A stretch of 64,000 nt of DNA. It comes from Acidobacteriota bacterium (GTDB lineage Bacteria > Acidobacteriota > Terriglobia > 2-12-FULL-54-10). Each line of letters opens with the position of its first letter. The first letter of the stretch is position 1. Positions 6,705 to 19,128 of this stretch are shown one piece after another. The notes beneath the pieces are model-generated. The model ran no database searches. It worked only from the letters and a program-made list of their open reading frames with translations, and had not been told where the DNA came from. The position numbers were made by a program, and so were the translations under genes. Location: the NCBI GenBank assembly GCA_016191085.1, contig JACPPJ010000032.1, positions 1 to 64,000 of the forward strand, given 5' to 3'.

Positions 6705-7333
6705 ATGATAAGCAAGCAAGCTGCAAAGGTGTTCGGATTCATGCTCGCCGTCGCGTTGTGGGCTTCGCCAGCTTCGGCCCAGGTCGCCGGCGGCATCCAC
6801 TCCGCTGCCATCACTGCGGACCAGCCCACCACCATTTCGCCAACCAATGTCGATCTGCATAGCCTCAAGGCGCAGATCGATGCATTCCAGAACGTTCTGA
6901 ACCGCACGATCCAGCAGAAGTTCGGGCATCCTTTTTCGCTGCTGCAGGATGCTAAGGGCATCTACCTGGCGGGTTTCGGCGTGGCATTCCATATGGAGGT
7001 GAACCTGCATCCGTTGCGCATGATGTCGCCGTTCGACCTGCGCCCCTACACGCCCGAAGAAATACGCAAATCGAAAGAGGAAAAGATTGCAAGGATCGCG
7101 CAGTTGAGGACGGAGTTAGCCGATCTATTGATGCGGCACGGCGGGCAATTGAACGCTATGGCGCCGGAGCAAAATATCGCTGTCGCCGTACATCTATTCA
7201 ATTTGCGCCCGGAAGGCCCCGATCTGCCGTCGCAGCTCGTCATGAAGGTAGACCGTCAGATGCTCCTCGATTTCCAAACTCGCCGCCTTACGGCCGAACA
7301 GTTTCAGAAGGCAGCCTCGGTGCTGGAGTTTTG

Positions 7334-7334
<1 letters not shown>
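6705..7334 (+). CDS. Exported protein of unknown function, first gene of the secretion operon
   Basis: I do not recognise the family. The 209-residue product has a clear signal peptide (FMLAVALWASPASAQVAGG). A globular part follows with two predicted helical stretches, around residues 48-70 (SLKAQIDAFQNVLNRTIQQ) and 125-150 (EEIRKSKEEKIARIAQLRTE). A GTIQQKFG/GFGVAFHMEV-like core lies between them. Its TGA overlaps the ATG of gspE (TGATG at 7332-7336), and AAAGGAAC precedes its own ATG, so it is almost certainly co-translated with the type II secretion genes. It could be a periplasmic accessory or sensor for the sigma/anti-sigma pair upstream. That role is inference. Confidence 0.8.
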
Positions 7335-9055
<1,721 letters not shown>

Positions 9056-9058
9056 ATG

Positions 9059-9093
9059 CAGAATTCAGAAGTCAGGAGTCAGAAGTCAGAATA
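9059..9093 (+). repeat. Five tandem heptads of CAGAAGT type between gspE and gspF
   Basis: The units are CAGAATT, CAGAAGT, CAGGAGT, CAGAAGT and CAGAATA. They fill almost the whole gap between the gspE stop and the gspF ribosome-binding site (GGGA at 9094-9097). The same heptad family recurs at 10362-10389, just after gspF. Confidence 0.85.
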
Positions 9094-9098
9094 GGGAC

Positions 9099-10355
9099 AT
9101 GGCGAGCTTTCGTTACAGAGCGGTTACAAGCGCAGGGCAGGTACAGGAAGGCGTGCGCGAAGGCGGTTCCGAACGAGCCGTGGCGCGAGACCTCCAATCT
9201 ATGGGCTTGGTGCCGCTGCATGTCGGCGCAGCGTCAGGCACTGCCATGTCGGGCGCGCATGCTGCTCGGGGGCAGACTGATTTGTCCTCGCGCCTGAGCG
9301 CATGGTTCGCGCTGGGCGGGCGGCGCATTACCAGCCGTGACCGTCTGCTTTTCACTCAGGAACTCGCCACGCTGCTGAACGCGGGCGTTCCGGTGGACCG
9401 CGCGCTCACAATCTGTTCCGAACTCACGGAAAGCAACGCCTTGCGTGGGATCGTCTCAGACATATTGCGACGGGTCAGGTCCGGGAAATCCCTGGCGGAT
9501 GCGCTTGAGGCGCAGGGCGTCTTCAACAAGCTCTATATCAACATGGTGCGGGCAGGACAGGCGAGCGGCACGTTGCATTTGGTAATGCAACGGCTAGCCG
9601 AGTTTGAAGCATCAGCGGCGGAGTGGCGCGGAAATCTGATCTCGTCGCTCATTTATCCGGCCCTGTTAACGCTGGTCGCCATCGCATCTATCGGCGTGCT
9701 GATGAATTTCGTTATCCCTCGATTCGCTCAGGTATTCGAATCCACAGGGCTGCCCATGCCGCTGCCTACTTTCATCCTTTTGCGCGCCGGGCAACTCTTT
9801 CAGCGCTACGCATGGATGGTTATTGTCGCGATCATAGTGGCGGTGATTCTTTTTCGCCGATTCATACGAACGCCTCAAGGCCGCGAGCGCTGGGACCGAT
9901 TTCAATTGCGGGTTCCCCTTATCGGTGAGTTATTGCGTAAAGCCGAAACCGCCCGCTTCGCCCGCACTATGTCTACTTTAGTCGCCAACAGCGTTCCGCT
10001 CGTGCAGTCGCTCGGAATCGTGAAAGAGATGTCCGGCAATTGCGTCATCGCCAGCTCGCTGGATATCGTCGCGCAAGGCGTGAAGCGTGGCGAAGGCATT
10101 GCCGCGCCGGTGCGGAAATCCGGAGCGTTTCCAGCTCTGGCAGCGCATTTACTTGCGGTTGGAGAAGAAACAGGGCGCCTGGATTCCATGTTCGAGCGTC
10201 TCGCCACCGTATATGAGAACGAAACGAAAGTGACGATGCGTCGCTTAACGGCGCTGTTCGAACCCATGGTGATCTTGGGGATGGGTCTTACGGTCGGGGC
10301 GATTGTGCTTTCACTATTGATGGCCATCACCAGCATCAACGATGTGCCGTTTTAA
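9099..10355 (+). CDS. gspF: Type II secretion inner-membrane platform protein GspF
   Basis: This 418-residue protein has the GspF/PilC architecture of two copies of the T2SSF domain. The first starts near residue 80 (LLFTQELATLLNAGVPVDRAL) and includes MVRAGQASGTLHLVMQRLAEF. The second starts near residue 285 (ETARFARTMSTLVANSVPLVQSL) and includes LAVGEETGRLDSMFERLATVYE. Transmembrane helices lie around residues 190-210, 240-255 and 390-410. The short N-terminal region (FRYRAVTSAGQVQEGV) contacts the ATPase GspE in studied systems. It sits between gspE and gspG, as in classical operons. Confidence 0.95.
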   Translation: MASFRYRAVTSAGQVQEGVREGGSERAVARDLQSMGLVPLHVGAASGTAMSGAHAARGQTDLSSRLSAWFALGGRRITSRDRLLFTQELATLLNAGVPVDRALTICSELTESNALRGIVSDILRRVRSGKSLADALEAQGVFNKLYINMVRAGQASGTLHLVMQRLAEFEASAAEWRGNLISSLIYPALLTLVAIASIGVLMNFVIPRFAQVFESTGLPMPLPTFILLRAGQLFQRYAWMVIVAIIVAVILFRRFIRTPQGRERWDRFQLRVPLIGELLRKAETARFARTMSTLVANSVPLVQSLGIVKEMSGNCVIASSLDIVAQGVKRGEGIAAPVRKSGAFPALAAHLLAVGEETGRLDSMFERLATVYENETKVTMRRLTALFEPMVILGMGLTVGAIVLSLLMAITSINDVPF

Positions 10356-10361
10356 GGAGCG

Positions 10362-10389
10362 AGAAGCTAGAAGCCAGAAGTCAGAAGCT
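10362..10389 (+). repeat. Four tandem heptads of AGAAGYY type after gspF
   Basis: AGAAGCT, AGAAGCC, AGAAGTC and AGAAGCT follow the gspF stop directly. They are the same heptad family as 9059-9093. Together the two runs bracket gspF. Confidence 0.8.
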
Positions 10390-10395
10390 TAGGAC

Positions 10396-10515
10396 AATAG
10401 AATGCGCCGAATCCCGAACCCCGAATCTCGATCCCGAAAGATTTATGAAGGAAAATTTTGACTCAGGAAAATAGAATGCGCCGAATCCCGAATCCCGAAT
10501 CTCGAATCCCGAAAG
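10396..10515 (+). repeat. 45-base direct repeat at the 5' end of gspG
   Basis: Bases 10396-10440 and 10470-10515 are near-identical (AATAGAATGCGCCGAATCCC then CCGAATC heptads). The second copy contains the gspG start and leader codons. The first copy holds an equivalent ATG at 10402, but a one-base deletion and a TGA at 10459-10461 leave only a 19-codon open frame. Confidence 0.9.
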
Positions 10516-10937
10516 AGGCGGGTGTAACCTTAATCGAGCTGCTGGTGGTGGTCACCATCATCGCGCTTTTTGCCGCTTTAGTAGGCCCGCGGTTGTTCCG
10601 TCACGTTGGTAAATCCCGCACCACGGCCGCACACGCGCAGATCAACGCGTTTCAAACAGCGCTGGGCGTCTACAAGCTGGACACGGGACGTTTTCCCACG
10701 ACAGAACAGGGGTTGCAGGCTCTTCGGACCAAGCCCGACGGCGTCGAGCGTTGGGACGGTCCATATCTGCCGCAGGAAATTCCGCTCGACCCGTGGGGGC
10801 ATCTGTACGTATACAAATACCCGGGCGACCACGGCGACGAGCCGGACATCGTGTCTTACGGCGCTGACGGGCGTCAGGGCGGTGAAGGTGACGATGCGGA
10901 CGTTCTGAGCTGGACTCACACGTCCGGCGGCCAGTAG
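10476..10937 (+). CDS. gspG: Major pseudopilin GspG
   Basis: This is the main subunit of the type II secretion pseudopilus. The prepilin site is AG/VTLIELLVVV, with cleavage after Gly16, a new N-terminal Val instead of the usual Phe, and Glu at mature position 5. It is followed by the hydrophobic helix. The C-terminal half shows the GspG calcium-loop signature (GRFPTTEQGLQALRTKP, DPWGHLYVYKYPGDHG, GADGRQGGEGDDADVLSW). Cleavage depends on a GspO-type peptidase that is not encoded here. I chose ATG 10476, preceded by AGGA and a seven-base spacer; TTG 10458 also has AGGA because of the direct repeat. The leader residues MRRIPNPESRIPKE are encoded by the repeated heptads. Confidence 0.95.
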   Translation: MRRIPNPESRIPKEAGVTLIELLVVVTIIALFAALVGPRLFRHVGKSRTTAAHAQINAFQTALGVYKLDTGRFPTTEQGLQALRTKPDGVERWDGPYLPQEIPLDPWGHLYVYKYPGDHGDEPDIVSYGADGRQGGEGDDADVLSWTHTSGGQ

Positions 10938-11426: not shown

Positions 11427-11941
11427 TGAGGCACATGAAGCATACGAACCAAACGAAGCATACGAGGAATTCGAATCCTGTGCATCCTCAGCTTCGTTTG
11501 CCTCCTTTGCCTCGAACCCAACAAGGATTCACATTGCTCGAGATCCTGGTGGCGACGGCGATCCTCGGGACCACCGTAGCCGCGCTATTCAGCTTGCTTT
11601 CTGCATCTTTGGGCAATGTGCAACGTCTTCGGGGTCCTTCGAAGGCACTGTTGCTAGGGCAGAGCCGCATGAACGAAATTCTTACTGTCGCTGCGACAAC
11701 AGCGGGTACGCCTCCGCCGATGCCGCTCGACCAAAAAATCGAAGGCCGTTGGGATGACCAGTACCGTTGGGAAGCTCTTGCCACGCCGGTGAATGTGAAC
11801 AGCGGTGATACGCCTGGCCCTGTGGTCCTGGTCCATGTTTCGCTGGATGTCTTCTGGCGCGCGGACCCCGGCAAACAGGAAAAGAAATTTTCCCTGGAGA
11901 CCGTGCAACTCTGGCCCCGGCAGCCTGAAGGAGTTCAGTGA
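11426..11941 (+). CDS. gspI: Minor pseudopilin GspI with an unusually long leader
   Basis: The prepilin motif QQG/FTLLEILVATAILGTTVAALF marks a class III leader peptide with Glu at mature position 5. The body contains LLLGQSRMNEILT, seen in GspI proteins that nucleate the pseudopilus tip. The leader is 34 residues from GTG 11426, or 31 from ATG 11435, against five to ten in studied GspI. It is encoded by repeat-like DNA (AAACGAAGC at 11451 pairs with GCTTCGTTT at 11491). GAGG four bases before ATG 11435 makes that start equally likely. A still later TTG start would give a normal leader. The stop overlaps gspJ. Confidence 0.85.
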   Translation: MRHMKHTNQTKHTRNSNPVHPQLRLPPLPRTQQGFTLLEILVATAILGTTVAALFSLLSASLGNVQRLRGPSKALLLGQSRMNEILTVAATTAGTPPPMPLDQKIEGRWDDQYRWEALATPVNVNSGDTPGPVVLVHVSLDVFWRADPGKQEKKFSLETVQLWPRQPEGVQ

Positions 11942-12669
11942 CGAGTTCAGTGACCCGGAATATCGCACCGAACAGAATGGGTGGGTTCACGCTCCTCGAG
12001 TTGCTGGTCTCCATGACCATCGTCTCTTTGCTTGCCACCACCGTGCTGTTCGGCTGGCGTGTCGCGGTCTCGGCATGGGAAAAGGCAAGCTCGCACCTGC
12101 AAAAGTCGAGGACAGTTCTGGCGACCAACCACCTGCTGCAGGAGCAGATGGCGTCGATGGTTCCTTACCGCGGAATAGCCAGCACGGGGTTCCATCTTTT
12201 CTTCCAAGGCGAGCCCCTGACGGCGCGTTTTCTGAGCCGCTATTCCCTGACCGGACGCGCGAACTCGGGCCTCTATCGCATCGAATATCAGGTTGTCGAA
12301 GCCGAGGACGGAACCAAGCAACTGTTGATGAATGAGGTGCCCGTGACCAGCCGTGAAGAGTTGGGCGCTCTCATCCAGCAAGCGGACCCTGCTTCTTTTT
12401 CACCTCAGTTGCGGTTCGCGCCTTTTGAACGCGGGCCGCGAACGGTGGTGCTGTTAGCGGGAGTGAAAGACTGCCGGTTCGAGTACTACAAGGCGGCTTC
12501 CGCCCTCGAAGCGGGAACTTGGGTCCCGGAGTGGTTAGGTACTATGAACGAACTGCCTAGAGCCATGGCGATACGCATCACACCGTCCGATGATCCGGCC
12601 GGTGTGGCACCGGCTTCGGTGGTTGCGGCGATCCGGGATTTTTCCATCGCCCCCGTGAGCACACCGTAA
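11938..12669 (+). CDS. gspJ: Minor pseudopilin GspJ
   Basis: This begins at GTG 11938 inside the gspI stop (GTGA overlap), so translation is coupled. The leader ends MGG/FTLLELLVSMTIVSLL with Glu at mature position 5. The 243-residue length and the late motif ERGPRTVVLLAGVKDCRFEY plus ELPRAMAIRITP match GspJ, which forms the tip ternary complex with GspI and GspK. The extracytoplasmic domain is beta-rich. No unusual feature apart from the GTG start. Confidence 0.9.
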   Translation: MTSSVTRNIAPNRMGGFTLLELLVSMTIVSLLATTVLFGWRVAVSAWEKASSHLQKSRTVLATNHLLQEQMASMVPYRGIASTGFHLFFQGEPLTARFLSRYSLTGRANSGLYRIEYQVVEAEDGTKQLLMNEVPVTSREELGALIQQADPASFSPQLRFAPFERGPRTVVLLAGVKDCRFEYYKAASALEAGTWVPEWLGTMNELPRAMAIRITPSDDPAGVAPASVVAAIRDFSIAPVSTP

Positions 12670-16057: not shown

Positions 16058-16771
16058 TTGCATCGTAGACAGCTTGTAATTCTTTATCTCAGCTTATGCA
16101 TCGTTGCGATCTCGCTCGCGTGGAAACTGGCAAGTGACTGGCGACGTGCGGGTCTTAGGTACGCACGCGTTCGCGCCAGCGCGGCCGTTCCGGCTTCCGC
16201 TGCTCGTCCCGCGCCGCCGGTTACGCCCGCAGCGATGACGGTAGCCGAGAACGAAATCATCGCCAAGAACCTGTTCAGCCCGGATCGGACTAACCAAATA
16301 GAGGCGCAAGACGACAAGCTGGAGGCACCTCCTCCCGCTCCTATCGTGTATGGAACTATGAATCTGGGCGGCAACTACGAAGCGTTAATGGCAGAAGGCG
16401 GGCAGGCGGGACGTTCCGCGTTTCGCCGCGTGAAGAACGGCGAGCAACTCGGACGTTACACAGTCGTAGACATCCGCGATGAAAAGGTCGTAGTGGAATT
16501 TCGCGGCCAGAAAACGATCATTGATGTATACGAATCGGCGAACAGCGTACCGCGCGAGACGGCGCGCACAACTGTGGCGGCGACGCCGGTGGTGGAGGGA
16601 GCGGCAGCGCCGCAGCAGGCGCCCGCCGCACCGGAGCCAAGCGCAGCGCCTGCGCCGAGCGCGGGTGCGCAACAGGGTACTGATAGCTCGACCGTTGAAG
16701 GCAATCGCCGGCGAGTCGAGCGCCAGACGCCATTCGGGACGCAGGTGTGGTACGAGGATATCCAGAAATGA
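16058..16771 (+). CDS. gspC: GspC-like inner-membrane protein without a PDZ domain
   Basis: The 237-residue protein has an N-terminal membrane helix (LVILYLSLCIVAISLAW), a Pro/Ala linker, then the GspC-type homology region. This opens with ENEIIAKNLFSPDR and continues as VKNGEQLGRYTVVDIRDEKVVVEF. GspC links the inner-membrane platform to the secretin through this domain. No PDZ domain follows; the C-terminus is a Pro/Ala-rich tract ending VERQTPFGTQVWYEDIQK. A nearly identical VERDTPFGKQ occurs near the start of GspD. It starts at TTG 16058 with GGAGG five bases upstream, and its stop overlaps the gspD ATG (ATGA). Confidence 0.82.
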   Translation: MHRRQLVILYLSLCIVAISLAWKLASDWRRAGLRYARVRASAAVPASAARPAPPVTPAAMTVAENEIIAKNLFSPDRTNQIEAQDDKLEAPPPAPIVYGTMNLGGNYEALMAEGGQAGRSAFRRVKNGEQLGRYTVVDIRDEKVVVEFRGQKTIIDVYESANSVPRETARTTVAATPVVEGAAAPQQAPAAPEPSAAPAPSAGAQQGTDSSTVEGNRRRVERQTPFGTQVWYEDIQK

Positions 16772-19128
16772 GTCATGCAGCCGGAATCGGAGTACGTGAA
16801 ATGCACGCGCTACAGCTCAGGAAGGCGGAAAAGTTGAATCGCAAATGGACCACGGCGCCGATAATTGGTGTCATCATAATTACATTGCTCTGTCCAAATG
16901 GTCTGATAGGTTGGCAGCAAAGTGCCACGTCAGACGAACAGAAAAGAGAAGGCGCCACCGCGCCCGGCGCTCCTTCGTCGCCTGCACAGTCGGAGGAAGA
17001 ATACATTGAGGTGGAGCGCGATACGCCGTTTGGCAAGCAGCGTTTTCGGGTACCCAAGAGTTCAGTCGCCGCTCCACCGTCGCAGGGTCAGTCGCCCGCG
17101 CCCCAGGTAGTGCCAGCGCCAACTGCCCCTGCCAATCAGCCAGCGGGCCCCGCCGCCCTGCAGTCGCAGCAGCCTGCCCCAGGATCGCAGCCTCCAGCGG
17201 CGCCGCCTACTCCTCCGCAAGCAGTGGATGCTACCGTGCCCATCGCCCTCCACCTGGAAAACGCTAACCTGCTGCAGGTGATCGGCATTATTGCGGCAGA
17301 GCTGAAAATGAATTATGTCGTGGACCCCGCGGTCACGGGTTCGGTGAACATCAACACTCTAGGAGAAGTGCGCCGCAGCGACTTGTTCCCGCTCCTTCAA
17401 ATGATCCTGCGGATCAACGGGGCTACGGCGGTACAGGTTGGAAATTTCTTTCGCATTGTTCCGTTGAAGGATGTCCAGAGGTTGCCGATCGAACCGCTGT
17501 TCAACCCCGAAGCGGGAATGCTTGCCCCGGATGACCGGATGGTCATGAATATCATTCCACTGAAATACGTCTCTGCTCCGGACATGACCAAAATCCTTAC
17601 GCCGTTCCTCTCCGAGGGCGGGCACCTGTTCAGCCATGACGCGGGCAACATCCTGGTGATCACCGATAGCAGCCGGAGCATGAAACGCCTGCTGGAATTA
17701 GTGGGCATGTTCGATACGGAGGTGTTCAGCGATCAACGGGCTCGGCTGTATCAGATAAAGCATGGCCAGGCGACCAAGCTGGCCGCGGAGTTGAAAGACA
17801 TTTTCTCCGCATACGGCCTGTCGGGAAGCCCCGCCGTGCGGTTCGTGCCCATTGACCGCATAAATTCAGTGTTGGCTGTCACTGCAAATCCCTCTGTGTA
17901 TAGCGAAGTAGAGAAATGGCTTGAGAAGCTCGACCAACCACGCCAGGAGTCCGGTATCAGAAATTTCATCTACAAGGTCGAGAATGGTAAGGCCGCGGAC
18001 CTCGCCGGTGTGTTGATACAATTGCTTGGCGGCCCGCCTCCTCAACAAGCTGCTTCGCGTCCGGGCGCGCCTCCTGGTCTGGGTGGCGTGCCTGTGGCAC
18101 AAGCTCCGCCGGTCGGAGCGATGCCCGGAAGCGCAGGTGAGCTTTCCCACATCCGAATTGTTCCCGATGTGGTAAATAATCAGATATTGGTTCAGTCCAC
18201 GGCGCAGGAGTTCGAGCAGATTCAGCAAACGCTGAAAGACCTGGATATCATTCCGCGGCAAGTCATGATCGAGGCAAAAGTATACGAAGTGGATCTAACG
18301 GGAAGCCTCTCAGCGGGCGTTTCTGCATTCCTGCAGAACCGTACGAGCACGGAACGGAAACCGCTCGGCAGCTTTGCATCTGCACAAGGAGTCGGCGCCG
18401 CTTCCCTGAGCGCGTCGATCGGCACACTGGTCGGCAAAACGCGCGAGTTAATGCTGTTTCTGAACGCCTTGGAAACGCGGAACCAAGCGCGTGTGATCTC
18501 CGCCCCTTCAATCCTCGCGAGCGATAATATCCCCGCCAATATAAACGTGGGTACTCAGATTCCTGTTCTCACCTCTCAGGCTCTGGTGGCGGGTGCGCAG
18601 GTGGGCGGCAGTAGCTTGTTCACCAACACCATTCAAAATCAGGATACGGGAGTGCTCTTGAGCATTACACCGCGGATCAACTCTTCGGGACTCGTGAACC
18701 TACAAATCCAGCAGGAAGTCAGCGCCCCTTTGGAACCAACGGGCGCGATTCAATCGCCGAGCATTCAGAAAAGGGCTATCTCGACCCAGATCGTGGTTGA
18801 TAACGGCGATACGATCGCGCTTGGCGGCATCATTCAGGAAAATCGCCAGCTTTCCAGGAACCGCGTGCCGTTGTTGGGTAATATCCCCTATCTAGGTCTA
18901 CTGTTCGGCAACACTTCTCTTTCTTCTCAACGGACCGAGTTGATCATCCTGGTTACTCCTACTGTTATCCGGAATCGTTCCGAGTCGCAGCGCGCCACCG
19001 CCGAACTGCGCGACAAATTAAGAGACCTCAGACGCATTCTGGAAGACGAGGAGAAAGAGCAGAAAGAAAGAGAGCGGCGCGAGCGCAAGCAGTCAGATGC
19101 GCAGGCAGGAAGTAAGCAAGCAGATTGA
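16768..19128 (+). CDS. gspD: Type II secretion secretin GspD
   Basis: This is the outer-membrane secretin pore. After an N-terminal hydrophobic segment (residues 30-50) and a Pro/Gln-rich linker come N0 (HLENANLLQVIGIIAAELKM), N1 (IIPLKYVSAPDMTKILTPFL), N2 (LYQIKHGQATKLAAELKDIF) and N3 (YKVENGKAADLAGVLIQLLG, interrupted by a Pro/Gly loop). The beta-barrel domain has GTQIPVLTSQ, GVLLSITPRIN, VDNGDTIALGGIIQE and VPLLGNIPYLGLLF. The 786-residue product ends in a Lys/Glu-rich helix, not an S-domain, so a pilotin is not obviously used. ATG 16768 overlaps the gspC stop. Residues 82-91 share the VERxTPFGxQ motif with GspC. Confidence 0.96.
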   Translation: MSHAAGIGVREMHALQLRKAEKLNRKWTTAPIIGVIIITLLCPNGLIGWQQSATSDEQKREGATAPGAPSSPAQSEEEYIEVERDTPFGKQRFRVPKSSVAAPPSQGQSPAPQVVPAPTAPANQPAGPAALQSQQPAPGSQPPAAPPTPPQAVDATVPIALHLENANLLQVIGIIAAELKMNYVVDPAVTGSVNINTLGEVRRSDLFPLLQMILRINGATAVQVGNFFRIVPLKDVQRLPIEPLFNPEAGMLAPDDRMVMNIIPLKYVSAPDMTKILTPFLSEGGHLFSHDAGNILVITDSSRSMKRLLELVGMFDTEVFSDQRARLYQIKHGQATKLAAELKDIFSAYGLSGSPAVRFVPIDRINSVLAVTANPSVYSEVEKWLEKLDQPRQESGIRNFIYKVENGKAADLAGVLIQLLGGPPPQQAASRPGAPPGLGGVPVAQAPPVGAMPGSAGELSHIRIVPDVVNNQILVQSTAQEFEQIQQTLKDLDIIPRQVMIEAKVYEVDLTGSLSAGVSAFLQNRTSTERKPLGSFASAQGVGAASLSASIGTLVGKTRELMLFLNALETRNQARVISAPSILASDNIPANINVGTQIPVLTSQALVAGAQVGGSSLFTNTIQNQDTGVLLSITPRINSSGLVNLQIQQEVSAPLEPTGAIQSPSIQKRAISTQIVVDNGDTIALGGIIQENRQLSRNRVPLLGNIPYLGLLFGNTSLSSQRTELIILVTPTVIRNRSESQRATAELRDKLRDLRRILEDEEKEQKERERRERKQSDAQAGSKQAD

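Follow-up and report, generated by a model that had tools for sequence, protein, structure and literature searches.

Heptanucleotide repeats in the leader sequence of a major pseudopilin gene, and in frame in other genes, of an Acidobacteriota bacterium

The gspG gene of this Acidobacteriota bacterium opens with an array of CCGAATC heptads that must code for the leader of the pseudopilin rather than serve merely as upstream DNA, because there is no ATG, GTG or TTG between the array and the cleavage site. The array is coding, is absent from the relatives and belongs to a heptad dispersed in its own genome, and heptads also stand in frame in other genes. The leader is probably a domesticated piece of the CGAATCC family of this genome, tolerated since the leader is cleaved off, so that a heptad repeat would have supplied a secretion protein with its leader. 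Cleavage by prepilin peptidase is established for pseudopilins in general, and we infer it for the leader described here.

The array lies in a type II secretion operon within the window, by which we mean the whole 64,000-nucleotide stretch of DNA that was analyzed. Pfam and NCBIfam models place gspE at 7331-9055, gspF at 9099-10355 and gspG up to 10937, followed by pseudopilin genes and gspK; gspD lies at 16747-19128. The GspG protein scores 142.9 bits against the major pseudopilin model TIGR01710, for which the cut-off is 88.85, and the genome contains three matches to the prepilin peptidase family PF01478 above cut-off. The features of the gspF-gspG region are as follows.

9059..9091, plus strand: heptad array (CAGAAGT)4.7 between gspE and gspF (TRF, sequence)
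9099..10355, plus strand: gspF, T2SS inner-membrane protein (Pfam T2SSF, 3.5e-48)
10358..10388, plus strand: heptad array (AGCCAGA)4.4 after the gspF stop (TRF; AGAAG-family matches in the same genome)
10388..10441, plus strand: repeat copy 1, with an SD-like motif, ATG and degenerate CCGAATC heptads, one base deleted (repeat search, TRF)
10402..10461, plus strand: putative mini-ORF of copy 1, 19 codons, its TGA overlapping TTG 10458 (sequence reading)
10445..10474, plus strand: out-of-frame ATG with a 9-codon ORF, possibly and weakly a relic of an old gspG start (sequence; match at the junction of relative locus L022)
10462..10516, plus strand: repeat copy 2, inside gspG (repeat search)
10476..10937, plus strand: gspG, alternative start TTG 10458 (TIGR01710; Pfam T2SSG, N_methyl)
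10476..10523, plus strand: gspG leader, the mature protein being predicted to begin at codon 10524
10481..10513, plus strand: CCGAATC heptad array, 4.7 copies, encoding the core of the GspG leader (TRF, translation)

The direct repeat of about 45 bases that a sequence-only reading had described at this junction is real: 10388-10431 and 10462-10505 match over 44 nt with 93% identity at a spacing of 74 nt, and with one gap allowed the match extends to 10388-10441 and 10462-10516 (54 and 55 nt). The copies differ by three substitutions and one indel, copy 1 being one base shorter, and the first 20 nt of the block, which lie outside the heptads, agree at 18 of 20 positions. This match is far beyond chance, as none of 3158 20-mers sampled elsewhere in the window had a comparable partner within 500 nt downstream. 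It is extremely unlikely that the duplicated block is a chance or assembly artefact, absent from the organism. The window does belong to a fragmented 3.47 Mb assembly (G000:C19; 82 contigs, 88% complete), but the copies are not identical, the gspG reading frame runs open through copy 2, and chance is countered by the sampling result just given.

Each copy contains an SD-like AGGA and AATAGAATGCG, followed by CCGAATC heptads. Copy 2 supplies the ATG at 10476, the SD-like AGGA and the heptad codons of the leader, as had been claimed, and TRF reports here a CCGAATC unit in 4.7 copies at 92% (10481-10513), with an internal mismatch. The same ATG in copy 1 (10402) opens a mini-ORF that, with one base missing, stops after 19 codons at TGA 10459-10461, again in agreement with the earlier claim. 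A third ATG, at 10445, lies upstream of copy 2 and out of frame with gspG, and the AGAAG-type arrays detected by TRF at 10358-10388 and 9059-9091 sit before copy 1 and between gspE and gspF, respectively. Both CCGAATC arrays carry a common CTC variant, an indication that the array had already formed when the entire block was duplicated. Since the heptad is dispersed in the genome and no other site there matches the ATG/SD part above chance (the remaining matches that overlap it have E values of 2.8 and 5.2), we take the 54-nt block for a local duplication built around the heptad array and not for a dispersed element in its own right.

Translation from ATG 10476 gives a 16-residue leader, MRRIPNPESRIPKEAG, followed by VTLIE, and the predicted cleavage site is G|VTLIE, with Gly-1 and Glu+5. 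The gspG frame is closed upstream by an in-frame TGA at 10446-10448, and TTG 10458 and ATG 10476 are the only possible ATG, GTG or TTG starts before the cleavage site; the start used is thus predicted to be one of these two. TTG 10458, which was absent from the sequence-only reading, has AAGGA five bases upstream, and from it the leader would read MTQENRMRRIPNPESRIPKEAG (22 aa). The proposal that the repeat became the GspG leader therefore stands insofar as the leader is repeat-encoded, with no start downstream of the array, while a selfish nature, active slippage and a role for the mini-ORF found no support. That interpretation is accordingly partly supported, and 'selfish' and 'regulatory' are unproven as labels for the gspG repeat.

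The start region does have an arrangement that could be taken for translational control, either through coupling or attenuation of gspG by the mini-ORF that ends at TTGA or through a G-quadruplex on the G-rich strand. The TGA at 10459-10461 overlaps the alternative start TTG 10458 (sequence TTGA), each of the two possible gspG starts carries a 4-base SD-like match, and similar heptads are reported to form G4 in vitro (PMC4692102). We nevertheless regard such control as unlikely. A shuffle test found no RNA structure beyond chance over the gspG start region, whose fold was equalled or exceeded in stability by 199 of 200 shuffled sequences (z = +2.03); three intact GGG tracts and one broken tract (GAG) are present per copy instead of four; and the mini-ORF/TTGA arrangement occurs in none of the 84 relative GspG loci.

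These relative loci comprise the best 80 of 119 from a contig search and four from the family, and represent 82 distinct loci, as L022 equals L026 and L025 equals L028. The named relatives among the best 80 of 119 are Acidobacteriota, many of them labelled Bryobacterales. The motifs PNPE, RIPN or ESRIP stand before the cleavage site in the window alone (one of 85 rows, and none of the 84 relative loci), and one of the six search peptides was MRRIPNPE, so any search bias favoured such leaders. Mean identity to the window across the 82 relatives is 0.18 for the leader versus 0.72 for mature positions +1 to +30. Gly-1 is conserved in all 85 rows; the cleavage site of the relatives was located by a motif that demands Glu+5, which is therefore not an independent test at that position. 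By eye, the leaders of the relatives are short and mostly basic, with lengths from the nearest ATG of 8-39 residues (median 12) in the 77 of 82 relatives that have such an ATG. The distance from the gspF stop to the mature protein, 168 nt in the window, is exceeded in three of the 85 rows, once at 179 nt and twice at >400 nt with extra pilin-like coding sequence between. GspG leaders thus vary freely, whereas the start of the mature protein is conserved. Unrelated, repeat-free leaders in relatives had been named beforehand as one half of what would speak against a repeat-derived leader, and they do occur; the other half, translation starting downstream of the array, is impossible with ATG, GTG or TTG.

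The leaders of the relatives have diverged too far for an empty site of the array to be recognized among them. A candidate empty site, in which 10442-10475 was compared with the leader of L022, gave a match of ATTTTGAC and was rejected, as 101 of 2000 shuffles reach this match, a figure uncorrected for the number of relatives tried. The same match hints that ATG 10445 may be an old gspG start. Insertion and local expansion would both fit the origin of the array, the comparison including a single genome of the genus. Repeats of other kinds were observed at the gspF-gspG junction of relatives: L023, from a family relative of a different genus (G001), has its own AGTGACA/ACTCGTC-type heptads in opposite orientations, and L025/L028 has a 15-nt repeat of the gspF end.

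Within its own genome the gspG heptad is one of a family. Allowing at most one mismatch, CGAWTCCCGAWTCCCGAWTC (CGAWTCC) has 14 overlapping matches at eight places, two of which are the gspG copies, and a looser search added further weak places. The six family relatives have 0, 0, 0, 0, 1 and 1 matches to CGAWTCC, and a reversed-pattern control gave none. AGAAGYC heptads are present in six of the seven family genomes, this one among them. TRF applied to a sample of 447 kb, made up of the window and 20 further stretches, yielded 42 non-overlapping arrays, of which six have period 7 and five period 14, four of these eleven falling in the window; other common periods were 12 (eight arrays) and 9 (five arrays). 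Period seven is frequent in this genome, yet not the sole period. Several of the sites in this genome lie, by eye, between ORFs and appear to have an inverted second arm (e.g. L013, L014 and L132). No inverted repeat involving the heptad array was found at the gspG locus, and this lack of an arm that several other family copies appear to have counts against an origin of the leader from the dispersed family. Four ORFs that read through heptads (L005, L007, L138 and L139) had no domain match across the array and were not counted as coding. Two further patterns were seen: AGAAGTC heptads occur in the same genome as plus/minus pairs 56-108 nt apart that resemble the arms of hairpin elements (C2:4868-4984, C7:15106-15182, C24:42219-42298 and C26:57881-58009), and L133 and L135 both contain a GATCC...GGATGACA motif.

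Heptads are also found in frame in genes unrelated to secretion. A gspG-type (CGAATCC) array stands in a 1122-aa open frame that, from its domain order and alignment, probably encodes a DnaE2-type polymerase; around the array, 86 positions of the HHH_6 model are spread over 110 residues. RecG contains an in-frame AGAAG array between its helicase domains, where the linker measures 39 aa versus 7-27 aa in the six family relatives. Self-matching of this linker scores 20 at lag 7, compared with 4-7 at other lags in the six relatives (scores without p-values).

No DnaE2 match at E<=1e-15 was found in the six family relatives, and the comparison was therefore moved to the class, in which 71 of 121 genomes have matches (75 loci). 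The loop was located by motif in 64 of these loci, with 11 dropped and some loci cut by contig ends, and arrays were scored with 400 shuffles at lags 4 to 24. At p<=0.01, nine of the 64 loops hold a tandem array, while an equally long control stretch just upstream of the loop holds one in 0 of 64. The best lag is 7 in seven of the positive loops and 14 in the remaining two, and the units are mostly different (GGGATTC, GAAACTN, GTCGACN, CAAGTGG, AAATTTC, CAGTTGC and GGGGCCA-type). The nine are partly dependent, as L165 and L169 come from one genus with related units and L170 and L177 share a similar unit. Six of the nine also have an inverted arm that no more than 1 of 100 mononucleotide shuffles equals; the other three have none. 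Dispersal of loop units from other genomes was examined for one unit, CAAGTGG from the G115 loop, for which G115 itself has 45 overlapping matches, G119 of the same genus 19, and eight other genomes none. At the same site, the loops of L164 and L171 hold repeats of another kind, GC-rich palindromes of the GGGGCAGACCCCCTGGTCTGC type with no heptad period.

These in-frame arrays bear on the idea of a phase-variation switch, in which a change by one or two heptads in either direction would throw gspG out of frame and turn type II secretion off, and for which the array would have been kept. Seven is not a multiple of three, and by computation the loss or gain of one or two heptads loses the pilin frame while a gain of three keeps it; as in phase-variable simple sequence repeats, a change of unit number therefore shifts the frame, and all in-frame ATG, GTG and TTG starts lie upstream of the array. 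Against this, the gspG array is short and imperfect, its heptad number comes from one genome in the genus, and arrays also occur in DnaE2 loops (here and at eight other loci) and in RecG, where switching makes little sense. A switch as the reason for the array is thus very unlikely, and neutral tolerance is likelier than function.

In the domestication of the heptad that we favour, an array would have arisen at, or entered, the gspF-gspG junction. Local duplication of a 54-nt block would then have given two copies, of which one became the N-terminal coding sequence of gspG and the other decayed upstream. Such a change would be tolerated because prepilin peptidase would remove the leader, which should require little besides a start, a degree of positive charge and, adjoining the conserved hydrophobic segment, Gly-1, and because a stop-free heptad permits read-through. 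The same process would place heptad arrays in frame at other tolerant sites, such as the DnaE2 loop and the RecG linker. We infer this order of events, and its neutrality, from the features described above. A broader reading, which we put forward tentatively and hold to be doubtful, is that Acidobacteriota share period seven but not sequence: a sequence-independent process would make genome-specific heptad families that disperse and enter genes in frame, repeatedly at the same tolerant sites (the HHH loop of DnaE2) and with units that vary from lineage to lineage, the gspG leader being one product and the array there conceivably also a secretion frame switch. Orthologous loops that carry different heptads in different genomes, alongside relatives with a minimal loop, amount to a natural experiment in the origin and spread of such repeats and their conversion into protein.

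The gspG case resembles known heptad and in-frame repeat systems without showing all of their defining features. Palindromic elements of Rickettsia were reportedly treated by Ogata in 2000 and 2002. As summarized in part of a review (PMC10969869), these elements of about 150 bp stand in frame inside unrelated genes and encode family-conserved peptides. The heptads likewise stand in frame in unrelated genes (gspG, DnaE2 and RecG), but they form short arrays, their units differ between genomes and no palindrome is present at gspG. Among longer simple repeats, heptads reportedly form the most abundant category in the majority of genomes surveyed, and polymerase slippage across some 7 nt has been proposed (Mrazek 2007, cited in PMC4679880), while the reason for seven is only hypothesised in PMC4679880 and PMC4692102; in another survey, repeats with 4-11 nt units were in general normally or weakly over-represented (PMC4060949).

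Rehm et al. (2015, PMC4692102) described GGGNATC / GGGANTN heptads in Xanthomonas and Nostoc and report 89-93% of the Xanthomonas repeats as intergenic. The same paper cites an enrichment of simple repeats near N-termini, and one of its figure legends names dnaE and xpsF as genes with associated repeats and presents an inverted pair. As in those heptads, the gspG array has period 7 and is dispersed, its minus-strand unit GGGATTC in 4.7 copies fits GGGANTN, and the GGGAATC unit occurs in other arrays of the same genome. Unlike them, the gspG arrays contain only GGGATTC or variants and no GGGAATC unit, lack a run of four intact G-tracts, and include a copy 2 that is coding. Acidobacteria are not mentioned in that paper. 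The TAACTGA heptads of Beggiatoaceae, proposed as possible regulator-binding sites in a study that discusses tolerance at the beginning or end of proteins (MacGregor 2015, PMC4679880), are similarly direct repeats adjoining start codons, but unlike the gspG unit they contain stop codons in the forward orientation. The literature searched showed no heptad-encoded prepilin leaders, no heptads inside Acidobacteriota genes and no case of one protein loop holding different heptads in different genomes.

We also considered pseudopilin leaders as special hot spots for repeats. In the 100 nt before mature GspG, p<0.05 was reached in 5 of 82 loci (the window included) versus none of 82 in either of two mid-gene stretches, and p<=0.01 was reached at 10 of 315 pseudopilin-like starts versus 2 of 630 mid-gene stretches. 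Most of this excess disappeared against other gene starts, and the candidate was set aside. After removal of duplicates, with weak scores counted as p=1 and the start taken as the first ATG of ORFs of at least 250 aa, p<=0.05 was reached in 8 of 200 pseudopilin leaders versus 18 of 472 and 16 of 476 other gene starts, and p<=0.01 in 6 of 200 (two from the window) versus 4 of 472 and 9 of 476. Repeats are therefore not clearly commoner in pseudopilin leaders than at the starts of other genes, and the notion that a cleaved leader is special rests more on logic than on enrichment. Individual repeats were nonetheless seen at such leaders. In the window, the gspI leader (11437-11465) contains a 9/18-nt repeat and the gspJ start (11931-11954) a 12-nt tandem duplication across the gspI stop and the gspJ GTG start, each with the lowest p possible with 200 shuffles. 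In relatives, the pseudopilin-like leaders L100 3463, L076 3006, L037 3027 and L067 4424 carry tandem repeats (p 0.005 to 0.04), their sequences being PGNRRPGNRRPGNRSAG, RNRNRNRRR, NQRRNRRR and a partly duplicated cleavage site, SAGVTLPSAGVTLM.
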